From NCBI GenBank assembly GCA_947442505.1, contig CANEVR010000009.1:1-57525 (forward strand): a stretch of DNA of 57,525 nt, given 5' to 3'. This DNA comes from Flavobacteriales bacterium (lineage in GTDB: Bacteria > Bacteroidota > Bacteroidia > Flavobacteriales_D > Sanyastnellaceae). This document shows positions 12,328 through 23,198 of this stretch, piece after piece (position 1 is the first letter of the stretch; every line of letters starts with the position of its first letter). The translations under genes and the position numbers were made by a program. The notes below the pieces were generated by a model that worked only from the letters and a program-made list of their open reading frames with translations, was not told the DNA's origin and searched no databases.

Positions 12328-13068
12328 TTACTGCGCTGAGAAGCGAAAAACAATGGTCCCATTTTGATTGGGTTTGCCCAAAGCAGCGTTGAACCGCCAT
12401 TTCTTGGCATGCGCCAAACTCTCATCCATCAGACATTCAAAGTTTGTAGATGAAGGATCAATGCTGGCCGATTTGACTTGTCCTTTGTCATCTACTACAA
12501 CATTCACTTTAACCATTCCTCCTTGTTTACAGCGATAAGTAGGCTTTGGTCCATTGCTTACCGTTCTTCCCGCCAAACTCCATTCTGCAGTTACCGCGCC
12601 TGCGGTATTCTTTCCTGATGGTGGATTGGGATCTTTGTCTGGATTCGGTTTGGGGTCTGGTAAATTGGACGGATTCCGCTCAGGTTTGGGGTCATTCTTG
12701 TGCTTTTCCTTCAATTCATCAAACGTGCGCTTGGCGTATTCCTCAGGAGACATTTCACTGCGTTGTCCAGTATGATCATACACGCCATCTCCCAACTCAG
12801 CACCTTCCATGGACATCACGTTTCGCAAAGGACCTTCATCTTCACTGCCATTGGCAGAAGGGGTTTCCTCTTCAAATTGCAAAGGAATTTCTTCCGTCAC
12901 AACCTCCTGCTGATCTTGGTCAAAAGCATCGTAGCCATTGGAAGTAGTGAAGAAGACGATGGCCGTTGTGAAAACCTGAATAGAAACTGCTATCAGGAGC
13001 GCCTGCATGGCCCATTTCCATCCACCTGAAGGTCTTTCTGACAGTATAAAATCTAGGTTTGTCTTCAC
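12328..13068 (-). CDS. TonB-like energy transducer
   Basis: From a GTG at 13068 the protein is 246 aa: a short cytoplasmic start (VKTNLDFILSERPSG), one transmembrane helix (about 18-38), an acidic stretch, a Pro/Lys/Asp-rich spacer (PDPKPNPDKDPNPP) and a C-terminal TonB-like module (GGMVKVNVVVDDKGQV...KKWRFNAA). It would link proton motive force to TonB-dependent receptors such as the one at 41-43 kb. The frame stays open back to 13251, but that would overlap the divergent Cys-rich gene; a TACCTTTA box 4 nt before the GTG supports the shorter form. No ExbB/ExbD is nearby. Confidence 0.8.
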   Translation of the reverse strand: MKTNLDFILSERPSGGWKWAMQALLIAVSIQVFTTAIVFFTTSNGYDAFDQDQQEVVTEEIPLQFEEETPSANGSEDEGPLRNVMSMEGAELGDGVYDHTGQRSEMSPEEYAKRTFDELKEKHKNDPKPERNPSNLPDPKPNPDKDPNPPSGKNTAGAVTAEWSLAGRTVSNGPKPTYRCKQGGMVKVNVVVDDKGQVKSASIDPSSTNFECLMDESLAHAKKWRFNAALGKPNQNGTIVFRFSAQ

Positions 13069-13072
13069 CCAA

Positions 13073-13080
13073 TAAAGGTA
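13073..13080 (-). promoter_or_regulatory. -7-like box of the TonB-like gene (TACCTTTA)
   Basis: On the - strand this one-mismatch TAnnTTTG box is 4 nt before the GTG start at 13068. It decides the start of this gene. Confidence 0.5.
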
Positions 13081-13118
13081 AACTGATTTTTGATTGAATA
13101 AAAATTCAATTTTCAGCT

Positions 13119-13126
13119 TATATTTG
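13119..13126 (+). promoter_or_regulatory. -7 promoter box of the Cys-rich gene (TATATTTG)
   Basis: An exact TAnnTTTG match 17 nt before the ATG at 13144. The leader is short and A-rich. Confidence 0.55.
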
Positions 13127-13143
13127 TTTAAATACTCAAAACA

Positions 13144-13461
13144 ATGAAAAAGATTTTTGCATTCGTAGCCTTCATGATTTTGATGGCTGGTGTGGCTTCT
13201 GCTCAAACGCAAAACGCTGCCGCTAATACCAATACTGAAAAGAAAGAACAAGTGATCAAGGAGAAAAGCTCTTGCGGTAAAGCAGAGAATGGTAAAGCTT
13301 GTTGTTCAAAGGACAAAGGAGTAACGGGTTCAACTGAAAAAGCTGCTTGCTGCTCTAAAGGTGAGAAAAAAGAAGGTGCTGCTTGTTGCTCTAAAGACCA
13401 AAAGAAAGAAGGTGGCAAGTGTTCTGGTGATGGAAAAAAAGAAGAAACTCCAAAACCCTAA
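13144..13461 (+). CDS. Small exported Cys-rich repeat protein
   Basis: I do not recognise a family. The 105-aa product has a clear signal peptide (cleavage likely after VASA, residue 20). The mature part is Lys/Glu/Gly-rich with eight cysteines: one in SSCGK, three CCSK repeats (ACCSKDK, ACCSKGE, ACCSKDQ) and one in KCSGD. The CC pairs are spaced about 12-16 residues apart. Such spacing would suit soft-metal binding or disulfide cross-linking in the periplasm; this is inference. It has its own promoter and terminator, so it is monocistronic and divergent from the TonB-like gene. Confidence 0.75.
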   Translation: MKKIFAFVAFMILMAGVASAQTQNAAANTNTEKKEQVIKEKSSCGKAENGKACCSKDKGVTGSTEKAACCSKGEKKEGAACCSKDQKKEGGKCSGDGKKEETPKP

Positions 13462-13482
13462 TCTTATCCAACGATAATATGA

Positions 13483-13505
13483 AAAGCCGCAATCGATGCG
13501 GCTTT
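13483..13505 (+). terminator. Rho-independent terminator of the Cys-rich gene
   Basis: A 9-bp perfect stem AAAGCCGCA / TGCGGCTTT with a 5-nt loop, followed by a T tract, 21 bp after the stop codon. Confidence 0.9.
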
Positions 13506-13536
13506 TTTTGTATCCTCGTCATTGTTTCAATTAGAA

Positions 13537-13631
13537 CCTATTCCGGCTATCCGTTCCAAGTCCTCGGGCCGCTGCGCGGCCCTGCGGGCTTTCCACTGCT
13601 ATCCGGGGTATGGCGTTCCTATTCGGCTATC
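13537..13631. repeat. GC-rich intergenic element with a strong hairpin
   Basis: This sits in the 192-bp gap between the Cys-rich gene and the response regulator. It is far more GC-rich than its surroundings and contains the perfect hairpin GGGCCGC-TGC-GCGGCCC (13566-13582). Near-identical direct repeats flank it: CCTATTCCGGCTATC (13537-13551) and CCTATTCGGCTATC (13618-13631). It resembles dispersed intergenic repeats I recall from other Bacteroidota. Whether it is repeated elsewhere in this genome cannot be seen from one window. Confidence 0.55.
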
Positions 13632-13653
13632 TCAGCCTTTGAATTACCATTTT

Positions 13654-14343
13654 CTAAAAACCAAAACCAATGTTCAGGTCGCTCTCCACTTGTTCAATGG
13701 CTGGATCTTTACCTTGACTGTCCAAGTATTTCAAAGCAAACTGGGCAATGTCATTTCGATTCCATTGGTCCATATTGCAATCAAAAATCTGAAGCAATGC
13801 TTTGAGATCTTTTTGCGACAACTTGGCTCTTTTCTCTGAATCGTAAAGAAACACCGAAATGACCGCCAAGGAGGCCAATGACGGTTTGGTCAAGAGATCC
13901 TTCAGAGAAGGATCCGCATCAATCAAACTCCAAATTGCGGGCAGCAATGAGGTAGATTGGGTATTGCTCTGGTATTTCTCCACTGCATTCTTTAAGCAAA
14001 TGCGCAAATCATGTTCATCCCAAGGCTTGGCCACATAGCGATAAATCTCACCCTTATTGATGGCATTGACAACGGCTTCGATATCGGCATAGCCCGTCAC
14101 CAAAATGCGCACTGATCGCGGGAAATCTGGAAGAATCATTTCAAAAAATTCAACCCCAGAGATGTCTGGCATTTTCTGATCGGACAAAATAACAGGGACC
14201 TCATTTTGGTTCAGATACTCCACCGCTTCGCGTGCAGATGTGGTGGTAAAGACATCGTATTCTCTTCTGAATAAAGCTTTAAAAGCTACCAAGTTGTTTT
14301 CCTCATCGTCTAGATAGAGGATTTTAATTTTTTCTTCGCTCAT
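13654..14343 (-). CDS. Response regulator with receiver domain and uncharacterised C-terminal domain
   Basis: A 229-aa protein. Residues 5-120 are a complete receiver domain: acidic pair LDDEE (12-14), phosphoacceptor Asp55 (ILSDQKMPD), Thr83 (LVTGYAD) and Lys106 (AKPW). It is of the type found in RpfG-like regulators (QKMPDISGVEF, GEIYRYVAKPWDEHDL). Residues 125-229 match no output domain I know: no HD-GYP and no DNA-binding helix-turn-helix. It is last in the ThiF-acyltransferase-kinase operon, and its start overlaps the kinase stop by 4 nt, so it is very likely the partner of that kinase. Confidence 0.88.
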   Translation of the reverse strand: MSEEKIKILYLDDEENNLVAFKALFRREYDVFTTTSAREAVEYLNQNEVPVILSDQKMPDISGVEFFEMILPDFPRSVRILVTGYADIEAVVNAINKGEIYRYVAKPWDEHDLRICLKNAVEKYQSNTQSTSLLPAIWSLIDADPSLKDLLTKPSLASLAVISVFLYDSEKRAKLSQKDLKALLQIFDCNMDQWNRNDIAQFALKYLDSQGKDPAIEQVESDLNIGFGF

Positions 14344-16388
14344 AGGTTTGAATGGTTAGCGTTTATAGGCAATAAGATGGTGAAGCTCGTTCCTTTGTTC
14401 CATTCACTATCGATGTGAATTTCACCGCCGTGTTCTTGAACTATTCCCAGGACAATCGAGAGGCCAAGACCCGTTCCTTCTCCCACTTGTTTGGTGGTGA
14501 AGAAAGGGTCAAATATTTTCTTTCTGACCTCTTCCTTCATTCCAGTTCCATTGTCTTTTACAACAATTTTAATAAACTCATTTTCTTGAGTGGTAGACAC
14601 ATCAACCAATCGATCTTGAATCGCACGATTGTCTTTCTTGGTGGCATGAACGGCGTTTGCAATAAGGTTCATGAGCACTTGATTGAGTTTTCCCGGGTAA
14701 CAATGAATTTGGGGCAAGGCGGTATCCAAGTGTGTTGATAGGGTTACTTCTTTGGACGTGATATTCTTCATGACCATTAAGGTAGAGGTGATGCATTCAT
14801 TGACATCAGCGAGAACCAAAGCATCTCTATCCATGCGGGAGAAAACGCGCAAGGAGCGCACGATATCTGCTGTGCGTTTAGAACCCTCATCGATTCCCTG
14901 AAGAAGCTGATAAATTTCCTTTTGAAGGTAGTCGACATCCAGCTCTTTGTATTTCTGTTGAAGGGCATTCCATTTGGATTGCAGGTCATCCATGGGTAAA
15001 CTTGGATTAATCTGGGAAATAATCTCAATCAGTTCATCAACATCCCGCTTCAGGGGTTGAACATTGGAACGAACAAAGTTAACGGGGTTATTGATTTCAT
15101 GCGCGATACCGGCCGTCATTTGACCCAACGATGCCAATTTTTCAGATTCTACGAGTTGCTTCTGGGTCAACTGCAAATTGGCCAATGTTTTTTCGAGATC
15201 ATGATTGGTAGAAGTAATTTCTCTCGTTCTGGCCTCAACTTCCTTTTCAAGGATGGCATTTTGTTCATGAATAAGACGCTGATTTTCCTCCATCATCAAA
15301 ATAGCCTGCGCCTGCGACGCCTCCTTTTCCCGCTTCAAGATATTAATTCGATCCGCTAATGCTAGAGAGAGGAGGATGGCTTCGATCATTACACCTATAG
15401 GTAAAAAATATTTCGTAACACTCGAATAAGTAATTACGCCGTAATCTTTTAATGCAAATACAGTGACACCAATCAAAAAAGTTGAAAAAGCAACCATAAA
15501 ATAGATTGCAGGTCTGTACCCTTTTTTCATGGCGTTATAGGCCGCTATCAATAATAAAATAGAAAGACTCGCATTGGCATTAATGAGATTAAAACTAAAA
15601 TCGTTAAAATCCAATAATAAAAAGAGAAAAACCAAAAGGTAGGAGCAAATTGACAAAATAGAAATCCTATAAATCCAAATTGAGTACTTCTTAATCGATA
15701 GAAATTCTAAAGCAAAATATATGGTAATTAAACCGCTCATTGAACCAAAAAACAAAACCCACTCGCTTTTGTATGGCAAAATATCTTTTAAAAAAAGTTC
15801 AAGTTGACCAAAAAGACACAACTGTGTTAAGAGGAGAATTAATACAAAAAAGACATAGATTAAATAAATCAGATCTTTTGTGCTTAAGTATATAAAAACG
15901 TTATACAATAAAACTGATAACATAATACCGATAAAAAAGAAAAAGAAATTTTCTATTTCATTGTTATCCTTCTTTATCTGATCAATCTTTTTAAATGAAA
16001 AAGGTGCAATTATTGGCGTTTTAGACTTTATTCTTATCAATAAGGAGTCTACCCCCATTTCATTTATTAAGGTTTGAGAATATCCGAGGTTACTCGATTT
16101 TAATAGCGTTAAATGACCGTAGTCTAAAGCAATAAAATCTACTGAATCTAACAAAGGATTCTCTACCGATATTGCAAGCTGAGAGTTGTATAGCTCAGTA
16201 ACTAAAAAATATCTTGATTGATTGCTCAATCCCAAATTAACAAAGTGATTCGATAAAGCTTTGAATGCGTTGCAATCTTTAATTATTTCTTCTGGCAAAT
16301 TCTCTTCACCATGATAAACTGCAATTGATTGAGAATACGCATATCCTGATAACAAAATCAAAAAACATAAGATTAATCTTTGTTTCAT
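14340..16388 (-). CDS. Sensor histidine kinase with 7TMR-DISM sensory half
   Basis: A 682-aa kinase. A signal peptide (1-19) is followed by an extracytoplasmic region (20-145, DISMED2-like), seven hydrophobic helices (about 147-345), a coiled coil (350-410), a dimerisation/phosphoacceptor region with His430 ([17 protein letters not shown]) and a HATPase domain with N577 (LMNLIANAV), DNGTGM (612-617) and GEGTGLGL (637-644). The 7TMR-DISM family is thought to sense small extracellular ligands such as carbohydrates. Base composition changes within the gene: 15901-15960 holds 11 G/C of 60, against 26 of 60 at 14881-14940. It is coupled on both sides by 4-nt overlaps. Confidence 0.92.
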
Positions 16389-17080
16389 ATATCGAAATGA
16401 ATTTTCAAATTCTTACCTCTATCATTGAATTCTTGAGCAAAAACTTTACTTGTCCTTAAATTCATTATTTTCTCTTGCTCTTCCAATTTTGCATTGGATA
16501 AATCAAACTTATCTTGAAGAAAATTAATTGTACTCATCCACCGTTCATCTGGAAATGGAAATTTCCCCTTTTGGCCAAGACTTTCAAAAGCTCTAAAACC
16601 ATAGTCATCTGCAAATCTTGAAACAAAAGGAGAGCAGAAGGTAAATACACTTTTAGGCGGTAAAAATGCTGCCGCCGCAATTGAAGTTCTTATGATATGC
16701 TCACTTCCAAGTCCCAATCCTGCTACTGCCCTGGAGTTCCATAAACCAGCTATCTCAACTATTCCGCCATTAACTCTAGCCCAATCATCAATGACAACAT
16801 ATATTTTGGGCTCTAATTGACTTAAAAAAGACTGCAGTGGTAGCGGTTCTATTCCATCCCAAATGTGAAGTCTAGCTCCGCCGAAGCAAATACTTCTATC
16901 CAATGACTCAGCAACAAGCAAATAAACCGAATCCAAACTTCTCCAATAATCGTAACCTTTTGAAAGCGAAACACCATTCAACAACAATACTTCTTCATGA
17001 CCATGAATGTATTTCGCTACAGTATCCTGATCATCTGTAGCCTTTAAAAATCTCAATCTAACCTCATTGATATCTGACAA
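16385..17080 (-). CDS. GNAT/LuxI-fold-like acyltransferase (possible N-acyl amino acid synthase relative)
   Basis: A 231-aa protein that I place tentatively in the acyltransferase superfamily containing LuxI-type and FeeM-type N-acyl synthases. Support comes from the order of blocks: GGARLHIWDG (67-76), VEIAGLWNSRAVAGLGLG followed by a helix IRTSIAAAA (108-138), SVFTFCSPF (144-152) and a GFRAF...LG...GKFPFPDE block (161-179), like the GFxxxGxP end of such enzymes. A Leu/Lys/Glu-rich tail follows. No signal peptide is seen. The stop overlaps the kinase start by 4 nt, and the start is 3 nt after the ThiF-like gene. The reaction and substrate are unknown. Confidence 0.5.
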   Translation of the reverse strand: MSDINEVRLRFLKATDDQDTVAKYIHGHEEVLLLNGVSLSKGYDYWRSLDSVYLLVAESLDRSICFGGARLHIWDGIEPLPLQSFLSQLEPKIYVVIDDWARVNGGIVEIAGLWNSRAVAGLGLGSEHIIRTSIAAAAFLPPKSVFTFCSPFVSRFADDYGFRAFESLGQKGKFPFPDERWMSTINFLQDKFDLSNAKLEEQEKIMNLRTSKVFAQEFNDRGKNLKIHFDI

Positions 17081-17083
17081 AGT

Positions 17084-18103
17084 CTATAGATGTTTAAGGT
17101 TATCGCAATTTATATATGCACGTTGACTTATGAGCTCTTCCCCAAGCAAAATTCTTCTTACCACATTTGCGGTATTTCCCGCTCCACTAACGACGTCCTC
17201 AGCTAGTTGAGGCCAAGAGCTTATTGACTTTCCAATTTCAGTGAACGAATAAATTGATCGATCTGAGGCATTACCAATCTCACAAAATTCAGCTATAATT
17301 CTCCCCACATTCAACTTCAATTCTTCTTCTGAATAATCAACGAAATTCATCAAATAAGAAGAGTATTGATTTTCCAAGGAATAATTCTCAATATCCAACA
17401 TCCCTCTATCACTAGTATGCATTACCAATGGAATCCCATTCCGTTTCGCATATTGACGCAATAAAATCTTAATTCTTAAAGAATCGCATTCATCAATTAC
17501 TAAATCTAAATCTGTCGATGATTTACCGAAAAAACTTTCTGCGTTTACCTCATTAACTCCTTCATTAAAAATTTCAACATCAATAAATGGATTTGACTCT
17601 TTAATCCACCTATATACCAAATCTATCTTACTTTTTCCGACATCAAAAACACCCCAATCAATTCTATTGGTATTTGACAAGTCCAATGTGTCATAATCTG
17701 CGATTTTAACTTTTCCACAAATTCCCTCCATAACGAGCGTTTTAACTATTGAACATCCAACTGATAGCCCAACAACTCCGACGGTTTTGGCCAATAATTT
17801 TAGTTGTTCAGACGAGTTAATCTTGTAATTGTTCCGTGTGTACTTAATGGCGTTAAAGATGTCCTTTCCATGCGTTATTAAAATGGAGTTACGCCATGGA
17901 TAATACACAAAAACTGAGGATGTTGGAACATTATGATTTTCAATTTGTCTCCAATCAGCTCTCCTATGCAATGATGTAAGAGTTGGGTTACTCTGCAATT
18001 CCTTTATTTCTTGTTCTATCAAACAATTAATAGAGACATTCACTCCTGAGCCAGAAAGAAACGAAATGGCCCCATCAAAATCTAAAAAAACAATCTCTTC
18101 CAT
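17084..18103 (-). CDS. ThiF/E1-like adenylyltransferase (Rv1355c-type) protein
   Basis: A 339-aa protein with a ThiF/MoeB/E1-type ATP-binding fold: VGVVGLSVGCSIVKTL (108-123) as the nucleotide loop and DYDTLDLSNTNR (136-147) with the characteristic Asp and Arg. A SDRGMLDIENY block (231-241) and a C-terminal VVRRILLG (314-321) resemble the ThiF part of Rv1355c-family proteins, which I recall as often also carrying a nitroreductase domain; none is present here. Residues 1-100 are a separate N-terminal region. No CxxC zinc pairs and no ubiquitin-like partner gene are evident. It is first gene of the operon, and its coding sequence is AT-rich. Confidence 0.72.
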   Translation of the reverse strand: MEEIVFLDFDGAISFLSGSGVNVSINCLIEQEIKELQSNPTLTSLHRRADWRQIENHNVPTSSVFVYYPWRNSILITHGKDIFNAIKYTRNNYKINSSEQLKLLAKTVGVVGLSVGCSIVKTLVMEGICGKVKIADYDTLDLSNTNRIDWGVFDVGKSKIDLVYRWIKESNPFIDVEIFNEGVNEVNAESFFGKSSTDLDLVIDECDSLRIKILLRQYAKRNGIPLVMHTSDRGMLDIENYSLENQYSSYLMNFVDYSEEELKLNVGRIIAEFCEIGNASDRSIYSFTEIGKSISSWPQLAEDVVSGAGNTANVVRRILLGEELISQRAYINCDNLKHL

Positions 18104-18105
18104 TC

Positions 18106-18128
18106 AATGGCTAAACTAGCTAGCCATT
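18106..18128. promoter_or_regulatory. Inverted repeat at the promoter of the ThiF/kinase operon
   Basis: Perfect 8-bp arms AATGGCTA (18106-18113) and TAGCCATT (18121-18128) are separated by 7 nt. On the - strand the repeat contains TAGTTTAG (complement of 18111-18118), a one-mismatch -7 box 7 nt before the ATG at 18103. It therefore looks like an operator that a dimeric regulator could occupy to block or control the operon. It lies in the 108-bp region shared with the divergent gene at 18212. Confidence 0.5.
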
Positions 18129-18211
18129 AACTAAATCACACCTTAAGTAATATTTGATATCAACGTTAAATGGTTCATTTCATTATATTTACTATTCTTA
18201 AACTCCACCGT

Positions 18212-19315
18212 ATGAAAAATAGAAAAACACTTGGAAAGGACTTTTCAAAAATTGTCTTTCCTACATGGGATGAAATCGTGTATTCATTTCTTAGTCAAAA
18301 TCTGAACAATGACCCAATAGCAAGTTCAGAGTACTTTAAAACTTTCTTCGACAAAATCGATAAAATCAGAAATATCGGATTTGGAAACCACATTGCAGAA
18401 ACTATGATGATCGCAGTAGATGCCAAAGCATTGGATTCTCCTGAGGTTTCTAAACAAGAAATTTATGATTTATTGAAAAAATCAATGAATGAAATCAATG
18501 AATTCTTTTCTGTTTTTGAACTCACATCTGGAAATTTCATTGAGGTAGATTCCACTATTGAGAATAAACTTGGAATCAAGCCAGAGTATTTTTCAATTCC
18601 CAATCTTTTTGCATTGAACCCTGATATTCAGTTATATCATAAGGCGGATGTTTGTCAGGTAATAAGATGGGCTGGAATAGCATATGCCGTTCTTGGATTA
18701 CCAAATTTTAAAATTGACAACTTCAGTGACTATTACAAAATCTCTTTCAGGGTTCCAACAAATCTAAGTTCTCATGAATCTTTGAGATCAAAGAACTTTG
18801 TTACTTTAGAAAAAAAATGCTTTCTGTTTTGCGACACGCCATCGCAATCCCTGAAATTCCCTAAATATCATTTCGATAGGTGGAGTATTTATGACGCCGA
18901 AAACTTTACTCACGTTCAACCCCTTTTCATTTCAACACCTGATCAAACAGATAAACTCAACTCCCTTGCTTATCTAATGAACGCATTTCTACTCGATATT
19001 AGTCCTAAGTATTTACTCATGTTGAATCAAAAAAGATTCACTGATAGAAACAAAGAAGTTTCCAATAACATTAATGCAAACATTGAACACCATTTTGGTA
19101 TTTCTAACTATTTCTCAGAAAATCAAATAGCGGATTCATTTGCAAAAACTATCAGAAATAAAGTTCATAGTATGTCATTAAAATGGGACTTTATACAGGA
19201 GGCTCTTCCGATTAATTCAGATCAACAAGCCCTAGAAACGTGCGCTAGATTTGGTTTGACCCCCATCCCATCCAAAATTGAAAACTTAATTTATAGTTGC
19301 ATCTCATTCGAATAA
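18212..19315 (+). CDS. Uncharacterised 367-aa protein divergent from the ThiF/kinase operon
   Basis: No characterised family recognised. The predicted soluble protein (ATG at 18212, preceded by TATATTTA at 18184-18191; an ATG at 18170 is less likely) has a central alpha/beta region with DIQLYHKADVCQVIRWAGIAY and DYYKISFRVP, possibly PAS-like, then LAYLMNAFLLDISPKYLLML and DSFAKTIRNKVHSM. It ends with a block FGLTPIPSKIENLIY. I have an impression of similar long conserved blocks in other Bacteroidota hypotheticals but cannot name one. No helix-turn-helix, signal peptide or membrane segment is evident. AT-rich, like the operon opposite it. Confidence 0.68.
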   Translation: MKNRKTLGKDFSKIVFPTWDEIVYSFLSQNLNNDPIASSEYFKTFFDKIDKIRNIGFGNHIAETMMIAVDAKALDSPEVSKQEIYDLLKKSMNEINEFFSVFELTSGNFIEVDSTIENKLGIKPEYFSIPNLFALNPDIQLYHKADVCQVIRWAGIAYAVLGLPNFKIDNFSDYYKISFRVPTNLSSHESLRSKNFVTLEKKCFLFCDTPSQSLKFPKYHFDRWSIYDAENFTHVQPLFISTPDQTDKLNSLAYLMNAFLLDISPKYLLMLNQKRFTDRNKEVSNNINANIEHHFGISNYFSENQIADSFAKTIRNKVHSMSLKWDFIQEALPINSDQQALETCARFGLTPIPSKIENLIYSCISFE

Positions 19316-19325
19316 AATGCATCCC

Positions 19326-19358
19326 TTCGAAAATTTCGAAAACCAGCTCCGGCTGGTT
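19326..19358 (+). terminator. Palindrome plus rho-independent terminator
   Basis: A perfect 7+1+7 palindrome TTCGAAAATTTCGAA (19326-19340) abuts a second stem AACCAGC / GCTGGTT (19341-19347 and 19352-19358) followed by a run of T. The second is a good intrinsic terminator for the 18212 gene. The first is either an extended terminator stem or an operator for the XRE gene starting at 19381. Confidence 0.75.
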
Positions 19359-19380
19359 TTTTTGTACCCATGTTTGTCTC

Positions 19381-19827
19381 ATGAATAAAACAACCATCAA
19401 AAACATCAAAAAATCCAAAATCCCCAAAAACATGATCAGATATCCTAAAATCAGAGAATTCAGAATTCTTCACGACCTCAAACAAGAATTCATCGCAGAA
19501 AAACTCGGCATCTCTCAACCTGAATACTCCCGACTCGAATGCGGATTCCGCAAAGCCCGACTCGAAGATTTTAGAACACTCGCCAAAATCTATGATGTCC
19601 ACATCAATATTCTCATGGTCCGTGACCAAGAATCCGTTTACGATCGTCCAAAAAAACGCCCCATCTCTCCTTCCATCCTCGCCGATGAACAAATCATGAG
19701 CCTTCTCGACCAACACGCACAAATCCTATCCTTCCTCAAACAATCCAATATCGAATCCCAACAAATCATCCAAAAACTCATCCCATTCCAAAACTCCAAC
19801 ACCTCCTCCTATAACACCAACCCTTAA
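19381..19827 (+). CDS. XRE-family helix-turn-helix regulator
   Basis: A 148-aa DNA-binding protein. After a Lys-rich leader (1-17) residues about 22-75 form an XRE helix-turn-helix: REFRILHDLKQEFIAEKLGISQPEYSRLECG, with LGISQPEYSRLE as turn and recognition helix. Residues 100-140 (SLLDQHAQILSFLKQSNIESQQIIQKL) could form a coiled coil for dimerisation. The ATG at 19381 follows a CATGTTTG box by 4 nt; ATG at 19432 is an alternative. It has its own terminator, so it is probably a single-gene unit, and it might act on the inverted repeats at 18106 or 19326. Confidence 0.82.
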   Translation: MNKTTIKNIKKSKIPKNMIRYPKIREFRILHDLKQEFIAEKLGISQPEYSRLECGFRKARLEDFRTLAKIYDVHINILMVRDQESVYDRPKKRPISPSILADEQIMSLLDQHAQILSFLKQSNIESQQIIQKLIPFQNSNTSSYNTNP

Positions 19828-19859
19828 ATTTTATCTCTCTCCCCTTTTTCCTTCACCAA

Positions 19860-19889
19860 TAAAGGAGATTCTCCACCGAATCTCCTTTA
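19860..19889 (+). terminator. Rho-independent terminator after the XRE gene
   Basis: A perfect 12-bp stem TAAAGGAGATTC / GAATCTCCTTTA with a 6-nt loop, 33 bp after the stop. The T tail is short, but the stem is strong. Confidence 0.8.
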
Positions 19890-20012
19890 TTTACCCCTCT
19901 TCTCATTTTCGCTTCTTATTTTTATTCACTTTTTTACAGCTGATAATCAGCGACTTAAAAACTTTTTCAACATTTTTTGTAACCTTTCTTTTACCCCTCA
20001 CGTTCAATCCAT

Positions 20013-20024
20013 CAACAACAACAA
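20013..20024 (+). repeat. CAA repeat in the 5' leader of the degenerate receiver gene
   Basis: CAACAACAACAA lies in the leader 13 nt before the ATG at 20037, and the same 12-mer recurs inside codons 4-8 (20048-20059). Unstructured CAA tracts often promote translation. It is exactly complementary to a GTT tract in the 3' region (20531-20545). Confidence 0.8.
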
Positions 20025-20036
20025 ACACAAACAGTC

Positions 20037-20504
20037 ATGAAAACAAGCAACAACAACAAAGTAATGGTCCTCTCCACCAACGCTACTTTTACCAACGATG
20101 TAAAGTGCGCTTTGAACCAAAACTTTGATGTACTAGAAGTACACAACACTCAAGACGCTCTTGATGCTCTTCTTCCTGAACAAGTTCAAGTAGTAGTCGT
20201 TGATCAAATGCTTGATCAAACCACCGGCGAAAGCTTCCTTTCTACTCTTCGCCTTCAATTCCCTCAAGTGAAAAGCGTTTTCGTTGTTCAAAACAGCGCA
20301 GACCTCAACTGGGAATCTTTGGTAAACAATGCCAATCCCTTCCGTGTAGTTTCTGTTCCTGTTAACCTTACCACCTTGGCCAAACATGTAACTGATGCCG
20401 CTAACCAATACAATAAAGAATTTGAATGTGAGCAAAACCTTGAGCAATTGAACCGCCAGAACCAACAAATGCAGTTCCTTTTAACGCAAAGCTTGCTCTC
20501 TTAA
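20037..20504 (+). CDS. Stand-alone degenerate receiver-domain protein
   Basis: A 155-aa protein folding like a CheY receiver (KVMVLSTNATFTNDVKCAL...VQVVVVDQMLD...VKSVFVVQNSA...FRVVSVPVN), with a Gln/Asn-rich helical tail (130-155). The phosphoacceptor position (Asp56) remains, but the acidic pair after strand 1 is Ser-Thr (13-14), the strand-4 Thr/Ser is Gln, and the strand-5 Lys-Pro is Val-Pro (107-108). Normal Mg-dependent phosphorylation is therefore unlikely. The leader is CAA-rich and the codon choice looks regular, suggesting good expression. It is bounded by terminators on both sides, so it stands alone; no kinase is adjacent. Confidence 0.8.
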   Translation: MKTSNNNKVMVLSTNATFTNDVKCALNQNFDVLEVHNTQDALDALLPEQVQVVVVDQMLDQTTGESFLSTLRLQFPQVKSVFVVQNSADLNWESLVNNANPFRVVSVPVNLTTLAKHVTDAANQYNKEFECEQNLEQLNRQNQQMQFLLTQSLLS

Positions 20505-20530
20505 GATGCTATCCTGACTGTGTCGGATAT

Positions 20531-20545
20531 GTTGTTGTTGTTGTT
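20531..20545 (+). repeat. GTT repeat in the 3' untranslated region
   Basis: Five GTT units directly precede the terminator of the receiver gene. They are complementary to the CAA tracts at 20013 and 20048 of the same transcript and overlap the stop codon of the convergent DUF4924 gene. Confidence 0.8.
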
Positions 20546-21092
20546 AATTCAGGGCGGCCTTTTGGTCGCCTTGTTTCATTTTAAAATAATGCCCACTCAA
20601 TGATGCCAGCATCTGAGAAAAAGTGCCCATAGCACTCTCCGTCTCCGCTGAAATGGACTCCCTTCTCAATCGCAATACCAATAGTCCATACAATGCGTGC
20701 AGGCACAACTCAACCTCATTTTGACTTACCCCTTTGGAACGCCCTATGTACTCTTCCAAATTGGGTCGCGCGGATTCATACAACTGAATGTAATCCGCAT
20801 CCTTCCATACCTTCAATAAAGTCTGGTGCAAGTAGGTAAGTTCCGCCAATATCTCTTCCAAAGCTGTTAAATGACCCCGCTTCTCAATTTTCTCGGACTT
20901 CATATCCCGAATCAATTCCAGAAACCACTTGCGCTCCTCAGCTTGCTGCGACTCTTCCTGGGTCAATGTCGTAATAAAACCCTCGAGCGCATCCGCATCA
21001 AAATTTACCGCACGCAACAAATCCTCCATCTGCCACATAAATAACAAATACTCCGCTGCCCCACTCAAATATTTCTGATGCGCAAATACCAT
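20544..21092 (-). CDS. DUF4924 family protein
   Basis: A 182-aa helical cytoplasmic protein of a Bacteroidota-specific family of unknown function. It is recognised by the start HQKYLSGAAEYLLFMWQMEDLLRAV, by a central ELTYLHQTLLKVWKD, and by VELCLHALYGLLVLRLR near the end. The ATG at 21092 is used rather than the GTG one codon upstream. It begins 2 nt after the OmpH-like stop, so it is coupled. The last codons carry a terminator hairpin used by the opposite transcript. Confidence 0.87.
   Translation of the reverse strand: MVFAHQKYLSGAAEYLLFMWQMEDLLRAVNFDADALEGFITTLTQEESQQAEERKWFLELIRDMKSEKIEKRGHLTALEEILAELTYLHQTLLKVWKDADYIQLYESARPNLEEYIGRSKGVSQNEVELCLHALYGLLVLRLRRESISAETESAMGTFSQMLASLSGHYFKMKQGDQKAALN
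20553..20570 (+). terminator. Intrinsic terminator inside the DUF4924 3' end
   Basis: Stem GGCGGCC / GGTCGCC (one G-U pair in the + strand RNA) with a TTTT loop and a T-rich tail. It terminates the + transcript of the receiver gene yet lies within the coding sequence of the convergent gene. Confidence 0.7.
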
Positions 21093-21094
21093 CA

Positions 21095-21721
21095 CTACTT
21101 CTTTTTCTCTTGTTGATACTCCTCATTCAATCCCTTCAATACCTCCGAGGTTACATTAAAAGCATTGTTGCCATACAATACAATGGGAATGCCCTCTTGA
21201 TAGTTCAGCACAAAATCAATGTTCTTCATTTTGACATATCGATCCAAATATCTCTTTACCCTGTTGTTCAAGTCTATTGTCATGGCCTCCTTCTTGGCGG
21301 CGATATCCTCAGACATCTTGGCATCTATCTGCTGTAACTCTCCTTGCAGTGTGGCCAATCGCTCCTCTACCACACGTGCCTCATCCTCCGGCAATTGTTT
21401 GCTGTTGGCATACTGCAATAAATCTTGCGCCTCCTTTTCTCTTTTGGCATACTCCCTCTGAAACTCAGCATCAGCCCCTTTCAGGCTGCTTTGCAAACGA
21501 ACTTCTTGATCTTTGATGTATTGGTAATGCATATTGATGCTGTCCCCATTGACATAGGCCACAACCGCTGACTTCACATTGGCTGTGTCTTGAAATGCCG
21601 ATGCTTCTGGAGCATCCGGAAGCGCTGCGGGCAAATCTCCATTGTGCTGGTTCCAAAATAAATAACCCAACGCTCCAAATTGCACCGCCATCACAGCTAT
21701 GATCCAAATATTCTTTTTCAT
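21095..21721 (-). CDS. OmpH/Skp-like periplasmic protein
   Basis: A 208-aa protein with one N-terminal membrane anchor or signal (NIWIIAVMAVQFGALGYLFW), a strand AVVAYVNGDSINMHYQYIKD and a long charged coiled coil (about 75-165), then strands IDFVLNYQEGIPIVLYGNNAFNVT. That is the Skp/OmpH pattern (VDSVLNKY...YKD...). Such proteins chaperone outer-membrane proteins in the periplasm. The ATG at 21721 overlaps the preceding stop by 4 nt, which favours it over 21748. It is the middle gene of a three-gene operon. Confidence 0.82.
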   Translation of the reverse strand: MKKNIWIIAVMAVQFGALGYLFWNQHNGDLPAALPDAPEASAFQDTANVKSAVVAYVNGDSINMHYQYIKDQEVRLQSSLKGADAEFQREYAKREKEAQDLLQYANSKQLPEDEARVVEERLATLQGELQQIDAKMSEDIAAKKEAMTIDLNNRVKRYLDRYVKMKNIDFVLNYQEGIPIVLYGNNAFNVTSEVLKGLNEEYQQEKKK

Positions 21722-21951
21722 TCCTTTGGTTTTATCGTTCCAAGCCATTCATGCATCTTGTGCATCTGCTCTATCATTTGTTCTGCGTTAGCAATAATCC
21801 AATCCTGAACCGCCGGCAAATCGTACAACTCTTTGTCAAACTTAAATCCTTGCTTGCATCGTCCACCCTCTATTTCCACAATGTACTTCCCGTTGTACTC
21901 ATGTACAACCATTCGCAAATGTGGATGAGGAATTTGTGCTACCAAACGCAT
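21718..21951 (-). CDS. Small conserved hypothetical protein
   Basis: A 77-aa protein (VAQIPHPHLRMVVHEYNGKYIVEIEGGRCKQGFKF...) with a beta-rich N-terminal half and a C-terminal helix rich in Met and Glu (MIEQMHKMHEWL). No named family recognised. It is kept as real because the stop overlaps the OmpH-like ATG by 4 nt and a TAATTTCG box sits a few nt before its ATG. No signal peptide is visible. Confidence 0.7.
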   Translation of the reverse strand: MRLVAQIPHPHLRMVVHEYNGKYIVEIEGGRCKQGFKFDKELYDLPAVQDWIIANAEQMIEQMHKMHEWLGTIKPKE

Positions 21952-21965
21952 GGGACGAAATTATA

Positions 21966-23198
21966 TTAGGATGGTGTCCCAGACACAGTTATTTTTTTAA
22001 TTCTTCTAACAATCAGCAATGAAATCAATGTGAAAAAAACAGCCAAATAGCCTACCCAATGATAATTTTTCAGTGGGGCGTATTGATCCTCTTGCGAAAT
22101 AATCAATCCAGCGATAATGGCACTGGTGCCGCTGGCCAAACTTTGGGCACTGCTGTTTAAACTCATAAAACCCGCACGCTGCGCAGGGTTCACCAAAGCA
22201 GATATAATGGTATTGGCGGGAATCATTCGACCTGAAATAAACGTAAAAAAGAATACGGCAATAAAAAGCACCACGTACAATGGTACTTGCGAAAGGTGGG
22301 TGTTGGCAAGCATTGTTAAGCAGGACATCCAAGCAAAAATGGTGAACACCCTAAATCTTCCCCAACGGTCCACGGCCTTGCCGATGGCTATGCCTGACAT
22401 CACTGTAGCCGCTCCTCCTGTTATGTATATGTACTTGATTTGACTTTGTTCCAAGCCCACATTATTGATCATAAATGGAGTCAAAAAACTAATCACCGTA
22501 AATTGCCCCAATACCAACATCACGGTAAACAACAAAGCATTGCGCTGTGCTGCAGATCCCAAAACGGATTTTATTGTGGCCAAAGGCTGAAAGGGAGTTG
22601 TCTTGTTCAAATGTGCCTGAATGGGCGGCAAGATTTTAATCGCCATCACCAAAACCAAAAAGCTCACTCCACTAACGACATAAAAGGGAACATGCCAATT
22701 GTTGTCAAATGCATCCACCAAGACCAATGCCAGCGGCACTCCCAAAACTGCCGCCAAGGAAAAAGACAATGTAACCATTCCCATGGCCTTCCCGCGTCGC
22801 TCTATCGGAATCAAATCGCCAACGATAGACATGACCAATCCACCCAATAAACCTCCTGTCAGCCCAGTTAATATCCTTGTCCCTACAAACAGATAATAAT
22901 TTAAATCAGGGTCTGGTGTATTGGGGACCACGGCAGAAGACAATGTTCCTAACATAAAACCCATATAAGCCACCATTAATGCCTTTTTACGATCCAAATT
23001 GTCCAAATAAAAAACACCCAAAAAAGAAGAGAAACCGGCTGCTAGCCCATATGAGGACACTAAGAATCCATAAGCACCAGGACCAATCATGAGCTCCTTT
23101 TTCAGGATATCACCCATGGGCATCATGATCATAAAATCCACGATATTGGTGAACTGAATGGCTGCCAAAATCAACAAAATATTTCGCTCTTGCCGCAT
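21966..23198 (-). CDS. Major facilitator superfamily transporter
   Basis: A 410-aa MFS permease with about 12 transmembrane segments. Loop motifs include LDNLDRKKALM (between TM2 and TM3, the G-x3-D-R-x-G-R-like motif), ERRGKAMGMV (second half of the cytoplasmic loop) and GKAVDRWGRFRV in the C-terminal half. The sequence resembles the drug/sugar H+ antiporter group, but no substrate can be inferred. The start is 2 nt after the FemAB-like gene, so both are likely on one mRNA. Confidence 0.88.
   Translation of the reverse strand: MRQERNILLILAAIQFTNIVDFMIMMPMGDILKKELMIGPGAYGFLVSSYGLAAGFSSFLGVFYLDNLDRKKALMVAYMGFMLGTLSSAVVPNTPDPDLNYYLFVGTRILTGLTGGLLGGLVMSIVGDLIPIERRGKAMGMVTLSFSLAAVLGVPLALVLVDAFDNNWHVPFYVVSGVSFLVLVMAIKILPPIQAHLNKTTPFQPLATIKSVLGSAAQRNALLFTVMLVLGQFTVISFLTPFMINNVGLEQSQIKYIYITGGAATVMSGIAIGKAVDRWGRFRVFTIFAWMSCLTMLANTHLSQVPLYVVLFIAVFFFTFISGRMIPANTIISALVNPAQRAGFMSLNSSAQSLASGTSAIIAGLIISQEDQYAPLKNYHWVGYLAVFFTLISLLIVRRIKKITVSGTPS

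Follow-up and report, generated by a model that had tools for sequence, protein, structure and literature searches.

The window analysed here is a 57,525-nucleotide stretch of a Flavobacteriales bacterium (contig C9, CANEVR010000009.1, of a 2.64-Mb genome in 106 contigs), and the subject is a four-gene operon on its minus strand that joins two predicted biosynthetic enzymes to a membrane sensor kinase and a response regulator. An earlier note on this DNA had described four same-strand genes with 3-nucleotide (nt) and 4-nt junctions, and all of its coordinates were exact on re-reading: a 3-nt gap is followed by two 4-nt overlaps. Pfam agrees with its domain reading of a ThiF protein, a 7TMR-DISM kinase and a response regulator. 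The operon has the following features (aa, amino acids).

17084-18103, minus strand: ThiF/E1-type cyclase, 339 aa (Pfam ThiF, E 3.7e-21; NCBIfam NF005901).
16385-17080, minus strand: FeeM-like N-acyltransferase of GNAT fold, 231 aa, with a TTG start 3 nt after the E1 stop (structure model).
14340-16388, minus strand: 7TMR-DISM histidine kinase, 682 aa, overlapping the acyltransferase gene by 4 nt (Pfam).
15386-16388, minus strand: sensor half of the kinase (beta domain and 7TM domain; 7TMR-DISM_7TM), the putative ligand-binding part, inside the exchanged block described below.
14340-15385, minus strand: kinase half (HisKA, HATPase_c; Pfam), outside the exchanged block.
13654-14343, minus strand: response regulator, 229 aa, overlapping the kinase gene by 4 nt (Response_reg).

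The ThiF protein matches NCBIfam NF005901, the Rv1355c family, with an E value of 1.9e-85; residues 49-335 align to positions 56-337 of a 722-position model, and the match is under the model's whole-protein cut-off. By sequence it represents the cyclase half of the oxazolone synthases of the Rv1355c/TrzS family. Eleven residues (G112, S114, G116, D136, D138, N144, N146, R147, K159, C206 and D207) are invariant in 17 cyclase sequences including that of the window, and are common to four actinobacterial TrzS-type proteins. In the alignment D207 corresponds to D218 in M. attenuatum and D234 in M. manitobense, and by motif and position it is equated with D217 of M. smegmatis TrzS; the ATP-site Asp is thus present. 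The protein ends at 339 aa with no fused nitroreductase-type FDO half, and a search of the window's own genome with an Algoriphagus FDO half as query, run without a positive control, found nothing. FDO is present in relatives of this cyclase and is fused in many Bacteroidota relatives. Since the window enzyme lacks it, it is classed as an FDO-less relative and not as a full acyl-oxazolone synthase, although an N-acyltransferase of FeeM/LuxI fold adjoins it as in that class.

Passages of the published work on this family describe products for the relatives. TrzS and the N-acyltransferase TrzA make N-acyl tryptazolones (PMC12856293), TyzACB makes tyrazolones (PMC10404671), and relatives of the window cyclase yield N-acyl oxazolones in vitro according to both sources; a further paper deals with stieleriacines (PMC12479983). 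When the FDO of TrzS is mutated or O2 is limited, the cyclised saturated oxazolone is said to accumulate (PMC12856293). By analogy, an FDO-less cyclase such as that of the window might form a cyclised saturated oxazolone.

The ThiF domain is also matched weakly by PADLOC E1-E2 models (best E 3.8e-9), which would suit a ubiquitin-like conjugation or protein acylation in which E1 and GNAT modify a protein such as the kinase. The Rv1355c family match is far better, FeeM is the nearest fold of the acyltransferase, and an ICMT-type methyltransferase stands at the cyclase position in three genomes of family f4 (see below). Modification of a protein is therefore a highly improbable function for this operon. 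A bacterial ubiquitin-like E1-E2 system was likewise rejected, since nine window proteins scanned with Pfam include no E2, JAB or ubiquitin-like domain and no partner gene.

Pfam returns nothing for the 231-aa protein at E 1, and the best NCBIfam (E 0.033) and PDB sequence (E 0.79) matches of this protein are both non-significant. Its AF2 model, built from 46 sequences, has a pLDDT of 93.8. A Foldseek search of the PDB with this model places FeeM (2g0b) at ranks 1-5 with an E value of 5.9e-8 and BjaI, an N-acyl homoserine lactone (AHL) synthase, at rank 6 with 4.4e-7. In VIA-align FeeM again comes first (Z 16.9, rmsd 2.9, 180 residues aligned), but the short general GNAT 1xeb is within 1 Z of it (16.1, 146 aligned); the AHL synthases LasI and BjaI score 15.1 and 14.7. 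The modelled fold is therefore nearest to FeeM, with a tie to a general GNAT in VIA-align. The earlier note had labelled the protein LuxI/FeeM-like, and FeeM as the top match of both methods does put it within the GNAT/LuxI superfamily. The likeness to LuxI stands for the fold, where FeeM is nearer; membership of the LuxI family does not stand by sequence. An AHL synthase proper was ruled out, since there is no LuxI-type Pfam or NCBIfam match and FeeM is nearer in fold. TyzA, too, is reported to have FeeM and BjaI as its nearest folds (PMC10404671).

The kinase has the domains of a 7TMR-DISM histidine kinase (7TMR-DISM_7TM 1.9e-34, HisKA 9.2e-8 and HATPase_c 3e-24 in Pfam). The model of its sensor half (pLDDT 87.9) has a beta domain at about residues 22-134 and helices at 135-344, which are counted as seven if two short helices are taken as one. 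The top PDB matches in Foldseek are periplasmic domains of RetS; 3jyb has an E value of 2.5e-5, a TMt of 0.68 and a TMq of only 0.30 because the beta domain alone aligns. On the model, the protein is a RetS-type 7TMR-DISM receptor with a RetS-like periplasmic beta domain. Human WLS is among the weak sensor folds (E 7e-4, TMq 0.40, rmsd 13.8) and was not used as evidence. The response regulator consists of a receiver (Response_reg, E 3.6e-17) and a C-terminal part of about 100 aa in which Pfam recognises no domain. Many relatives have a longer downstream gene, of which the single one scanned is REC-HisKA-HATPase, and a separate receiver gene often lies divergent from or near the operon.

The gene unit is conserved in Bacteroidota. 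Genes in the comparison loci are longest-ORF (open reading frame) calls, not annotations, and the profiles were built from those loci. Each species is represented by one genome. With the acyltransferase as sole query, 12 of 296 Bacteroidota genomes match, the window's own included; the other 11 all have the kinase in the same gene run and 10 of them have the cyclase. In a further 30 loci found via relatives, the acyltransferase is always present (once cut), and kinase and cyclase each occur in 29, in one run and on one strand. The locus without the kinase stops at a contig end, the locus without the cyclase is L055, and the order of cyclase and acyltransferase is swapped in L054, L056, L057 and L062. 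A cyclase search gave at least 532 confirmed relatives, of which the best 80 were kept as named loci, and a locus was taken to have room for the unit if at least 4.2 kb was available. Among these best 80, acyltransferase and 7TMR-DISM kinase are both present in 50 of the 52 Bacteroidota loci with room. Outside Bacteroidota the kinase is absent from all 22 loci (19 Actinomycetota, 2 Bacillota and 1 Pseudomonadota), 20 of which have room. The acyltransferase count of 0 in Actinomycetota is uninformative because the GNAT profile misses the actinobacterial enzyme, so the absence of the kinase is the informative part. The two Bacteroidota exceptions are Saprospiraceae records. One Saprospiraceae locus (L141:6409-8307) encodes a fused ThiF cyclase and acyltransferase of 632 aa and has no matching kinase.

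In Algoriphagus the cyclase is present in 54 of 72 genomes, and in 49 of the 50 good ones. The order cyclase-acyltransferase-kinase-regulator was found in 51 of the 52 loci read, the remaining one being cut; genomes G370 (split) and G376 (contig end) are outside these 52. A chance neighbourhood was rejected, since the unit recurs in the 30 loci, in the Algoriphagus loci and in the named Bacteroidota loci. The co-occurrence of synthase and kinase in other genomes, on which the earlier note had made its signalling idea depend, is thus borne out (11/11 and 50/52).

Synthase and sensor are also exchanged together. In the window's genus the exchange involves a larger block, which adds the following features to those of the operon.

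15386-19313, no strand assigned: exchangeable cassette of sensor half, acyltransferase, cyclase and divergent gene (low GC; DNA comparison with relatives G298 and G296).
18170-19315, plus strand: divergent 381-aa protein, co-exchanged with the operon in the window's genus (within the replaced block).
19297-19827, plus strand: XRE/HTH_3 regulator, a conserved flank outside the block (Pfam HTH_3, E 1.3e-9).
20037-20504, plus strand: second receiver-domain protein, a conserved flank (Response_reg, E 4.9e-6, slightly under the Pfam cut-off).

The DNA of the window is 90% identical to that of G298 over 13043-15385 and 84% identical over 19314-22820, and no similarity was detected between these two segments; G296 likewise has similarity to the window on both sides and none across 15386-19313. 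G297 and G298 are 95% identical on both sides of the same gap, and inside it only 71 bp (76%) of the divergent gene match. At the protein level, G297 and G298 share 0.39 identity in cyclase, 0.32 in acyltransferase and 0.31 in sensor, against 0.99 in kinase and 0.99 in receiver. The corresponding values are 0.39, 0.31, 0.32, 0.95 and 1.0 (to two decimals) for the window and G298, and 0.57, 0.61, 0.64, 0.76 and 0.94 for G298 and G296. The kinase half of the window is 95% identical to those of G297 and G298 alike. The identities and the DNA gaps therefore assign a common allele type to the window, G297 and the more distant G301, and a second one to G298, G296 and G300, the last being cut inside its acyltransferase gene; this grouping contradicts the relationships shown by kinase and flanks. 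Correlations of protein identities across the loci related to the window were calculated with L055, L059 and loci missing a gene excluded.

The block 15386-19313 has a GC content of 33.3%, compared with 43% on both sides, which is lower than all 268 windows of equal length taken in 200-base steps. One edge of this low-GC block falls within the kinase gene, where the sensor half meets the kinase half, and the divergent gene shares the block with the operon. The 381-aa protein has no confident Pfam or NCBIfam match, and it has homologues in 10 of 120 genomes of the order, counting that of the window. Homologues lie near a cyclase in L046 (two copies), L176, L212, L213, L218 and L219; in L214, L216 and L217 no cyclase is within the short flanks examined.

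Algoriphagus shows the same separation in 51 loci (1275 pairs, or 946 for the FDO; L065, at a contig end, is outside this set). The mean identities are 0.84 for the kinase half, 0.80 for the response regulator, 0.61 for the cyclase, 0.56 for the FDO, 0.55 for the acyltransferase and 0.38 for the sensor. Identities of acyltransferase and sensor correlate at r=0.95, and at 0.94 given kinase and response regulator (Mantel p 0.0005, the floor of 2000 shuffles). The sensor follows its own kinase part at r=0.23 and the cyclase at 0.54. In windows of 30 residues, the correlation with the acyltransferase jumps at the start of that protein, stays at 0.64-0.96 through kinase residue 360 and is down to 0.24 by kinase residues 391-420. 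The clearest case is L088-L089, where cyclase, FDO, kinase and response regulator are 98-99% identical, while the acyltransferase is 46% and the sensor 28% identical. Their DNA is 97.1% identical until 13 bp before the acyltransferase, has no match until kinase residue 367 and is 91.2% identical from there. Borders were mapped by blastn in six Algoriphagus pairs, five of them picked for a wide gap between kinase and sensor identity. Five of the six have the right border at kinase residues 356-368, and the sixth, whose two members are of one type, shows no break; L103 and L109 also differ in the cyclase.

Five acyltransferase types (65% cut) and four sensor types (45% cut) show 0 mismatches in the 51 loci. 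On the best tree of kinase and response regulator there are 19 changes of acyltransferase type and 14 of sensor type, where the minimum for five groups is 4 and the shuffled mean is 27.0. The acyltransferase and sensor partitions are identical at cuts of 0.50-0.60, with 3-4 types, and the best agreement with the acyltransferase types is 0.25 for the kinase and 0.36 for E1; for each acyltransferase cut, the sensor, kinase and E1 cuts used were those that agreed best with it. Six independent pairs on supported branches are all concordant (6/6, p 0.031). All 7 FDO-less loci are of types T1/T2 with sensors S1/S2, and all 44 loci with FDO have S3/S4. A segment of the E1 part of the Algoriphagus E1-FDO protein (residues 271-360, L060 numbering) tracks acyltransferase identity more closely than the remainder of the protein does, if modestly, with a partial r of 0.33 versus 0.18-0.22 for the FDO, and columns 288, 293 and 356 track type. 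It is possible that this segment reflects substrate-binding adaptation.

Three other groups of 7TMR-DISM kinases in Algoriphagus served as controls, using 34 of 35 pairs, the one left out lying within one genome. In these the sensor follows the rest of the protein with r=0.95 and a mean gap of 0.09, while the linked kinase in the same genome pairs has an r of 0.43 and a gap of 0.45. The control r is inflated, because two of the three small groups (5-6 loci each) mix distant copies; in the cleanest control, g805, the values are 0.97 and 0.12 versus 0.34 and 0.46 for the linked kinase. A generally fast evolution of 7TMR-DISM sensors was therefore rejected, since the control sensors track their own second halves.

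Two other genera have different gene orders. In genus g4 (order GNAT-E1-HK, 17 loci; HK, histidine kinase) the correlations are 0.95 for acyltransferase-sensor, 0.93 for cyclase-sensor and 0.54 for sensor-kinase. In genus g17 (E1-GNAT-HK, 19 of 20 loci, L295 being left out as no kinase was detected in the examined stretch) they are 0.90, 0.88 and 0.76. The acyltransferase is the best correlate of the sensor in all three genus sets, whichever gene is nearer. Genera g19, g24 and g300 of family f3 and loci L282-L284 are outside this comparison.

Another account of the exchange would be linkage only, in which a recombination hot spot swaps the stretch with no functional match between synthase and sensor. 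Their genes are neighbours that a single tract would move together. However, the border falls at the sensor/kinase boundary in five of the six Algoriphagus pairs and at the corresponding position in the window's genus, no mismatched types occur among the 51 loci despite 14-19 inferred switches, and the three control kinase groups lack such a split. In addition, the E1 segment 271-360, which the FDO separates from the acyltransferase, follows the acyltransferase more than the FDO, if modestly. Linkage without functional match is thus very unlikely.

In family f4 the acyltransferase is present in 38 of 117 genomes, and a cyclase lies within 1.5-kb flanks in 15 of 30 loci (of 40 matches). Twelve f4 loci, picked mostly for lacking a neighbouring cyclase, were viewed more widely. 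The acyltransferase, kinase and receivers are kept in these, and the slot between them varies: it holds nothing recognised in six (L253-L257, L260), an ICMT-type methyltransferase in L258 and L263 (and also in G126), a UbiE-like methyltransferase in L261 and L262, a FAD oxidase in L259 and a cyclase-FDO in L264. The ICMT-type proteins match the PEMT model too. Enzymes of the ICMT type methylate carboxylates. Since this is the group also used by the cyclase, the methyltransferase fits a tailoring of one N-acyl amino acid. Genome G570 (L251) has two tandem acyltransferase genes beside the kinase.

Signal genes and sensor half are exchanged together and the kinase half is conserved, as in a pherotype. 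The operon is likely to be a pherotype-like autoinducer circuit of quorum-sensing type, in which the acyl-amino-acid product, probably an oxazolone here, is the ligand of the kinase. Fold and co-occurrence lend strong support to the earlier idea of a signalling module, and the joint exchange of synthase and sensor strengthens the coupling further. In such a circuit, the chemistry in this organism would begin with acylation of an amino acid by the FeeM-like enzyme. Adenylation of the free carboxylate and ring closure, both by the ThiF enzyme, would then give an N-acyl oxazolone, here with no desaturating FDO. A neutral, AHL-like product could leave the producing cell by release or export, be bound directly by the RetS-type beta domain and/or the seven-helix bundle of the partner kinase and so act from cell to cell, and the kinase would hand phosphate to the response regulator or regulators as output. 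Synthase and sensor half would form a matched pair, swapped between species as one cassette, and the pairs are apparently preserved as ancient divergent alleles alongside a shared kinase half and regulator.

Several points weigh against this circuit. Linkage contributes to the correlation, because the neighbouring acyltransferase and sensor travel in one recombination tract, and the left border varies between 13 bp before the acyltransferase, its codon 3 and codons 53-60. As a correlate of the sensor, the acyltransferase is only slightly better than the cyclase in g4 and g17, and in g17 the sensor follows its own kinase half fairly well (0.76). The tree of kinase and response regulator has 23 of 48 inner branches starred, and the starred branches alone force 1-8 changes per type. 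Finer cuts of 0.65-0.80 reduce the agreement to an adjusted Rand index of 0.76-0.77, acyltransferase types T4 and T5 share sensor type S3, and the FDO concordance has 2 independent pairs on supported branches and only 4 FDO changes. The window's genus is known from draft assemblies alone, so an assembly error is possible; even so, two alleles whose borders coincide are seen across the window, G297, G298 and G296. The regulator carries no known output domain. An oxazolone would not be the ligand in all members, because part of f4 has no cyclase or another enzyme. The oxazolones of relatives are reported to be retained largely inside the cells and to be readily hydrolysed (PMC12856293).

The main alternative is an autoinducing antibiotic, in which the cell makes an antimicrobial N-acyl compound and its kinase detects this compound to switch on immunity or production, as NisRK senses nisin. 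Co-exchange would be expected in this case as well, and N-acyl tyrosines such as stieleriacines are described as modulating community composition or having antimicrobial activity (PMC12856293). Against this, cyclase and regulator enclose no gene other than those of the unit, either in the window or in the Algoriphagus loci, with neighbours beyond left unclassified and no search made for transporter or immunity genes. The cyclase is present in nearly all good Algoriphagus genomes (49/50), and the unit has few types and a constant kinase and regulator. An antibiotic role is therefore unlikely, though less so than the other alternatives.

The autoinducer circuit may also be read more broadly. It seems slightly more probable than its opposite that a pherotyped quorum-sensing family is widespread in Bacteroidota and has as its autoinducers N-acyl amino acid oxazolones and tailored variants of these (methyl esters, free acids). 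Its constant core would be the FeeM-like synthase, the 7TMR-DISM receptor kinase and the receiver proteins, and its chemistry slot would hold a cyclase, a cyclase-FDO, an ICMT- or UbiE-like methyltransferase, a FAD oxidase or nothing.

The operon shares features with several known systems. LuxM/LuxN-type AHL circuits also place an acyl-type autoinducer synthase beside a membrane histidine kinase; the window differs in its synthase and receptor families, its ThiF cyclase and the cassette exchange. In agr, ComQXP and pneumococcal comCD the signal genes and the sensor half vary together and the kinase half is conserved, as here, but their signals are peptides, whereas a fatty-acyl amino acid product in Bacteroidota is predicted for the window. 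The kinase resembles RetS-type 7TMR-DISM kinases in its periplasmic beta domain, seven-helix domain and kinase core, and differs in its linked synthase and hypervariable sensor. FeeM is the closest solved fold among the FeeM/NasY N-acyl amino acid synthases, but structural alignments give 11-14% identity, and the window synthase is co-inherited with a receptor kinase. The combination of FeeM-like N-acyltransferase and ThiF-type cyclase is that of TrzAS, TyzACB and OxzAB, and Bacteroidota relatives often have a fused FDO like that of TrzS. Unlike these, the window form lacks the FDO, and its enzyme genes are linked to those of a 7TMR-DISM kinase and regulators, an arrangement seen in 0 of 19 actinobacterial loci (best 80 of 532).

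The accessible portions of the TrzAS and TyzACB literature report no oxazolone receptor, and the texts of the two papers do not mention the word kinase (PMC12856293, PMC10404671). The 2025 TrzAS paper calls the physiological role of acyl-oxazolones "a major unresolved question" and notes their likeness to AHLs and nearby c-di-GMP genes (PMC12856293). No description of this gene combination was found in the open-access literature, among the matches listed. Acyl-signal circuits with membrane kinases are known as a kind; the signal chemistry is probably new for that role. The genetic evidence for a synthase-receptor pair is unusually strong.

Acyl-oxazolones were discovered only in the last few years. 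A synthase that is tied to a receptor kinase and swapped with it would name the receptor and predicts specificity groups, and the role of acyl-oxazolones becomes testable in culturable Algoriphagus. If the circuit is real, acyl-oxazolones would have a biological role as an AHL-like language in Bacteroidota, which would gain a new signal class, and 7TMR-DISM receptors a new type of ligand. The tailoring slot offers a ready series of predicted signal chemistries.

Some neighbouring genes were also observed. A small cysteine-rich protein with repeated CCSK motifs is encoded at 13144-13461, directly downstream of the operon. The Brevibacillus cyclase genes (L160:7674-8858 and L186:3639-4784) adjoin an ORF of 283-290 aa; two topoisomerase/gyrase-like genes lie downstream of the cyclase gene, and a histidine kinase (of PAS type in L160) lies about 2 kb upstream. 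In Nocardia and Mycobacterium the cyclase-FDO gene is followed by a gene for 623-637 aa (L118:10077-11948, L178:3353-5266). By its position, this is probably the c-di-GMP gene mentioned beside trzAS in PMC12856293.

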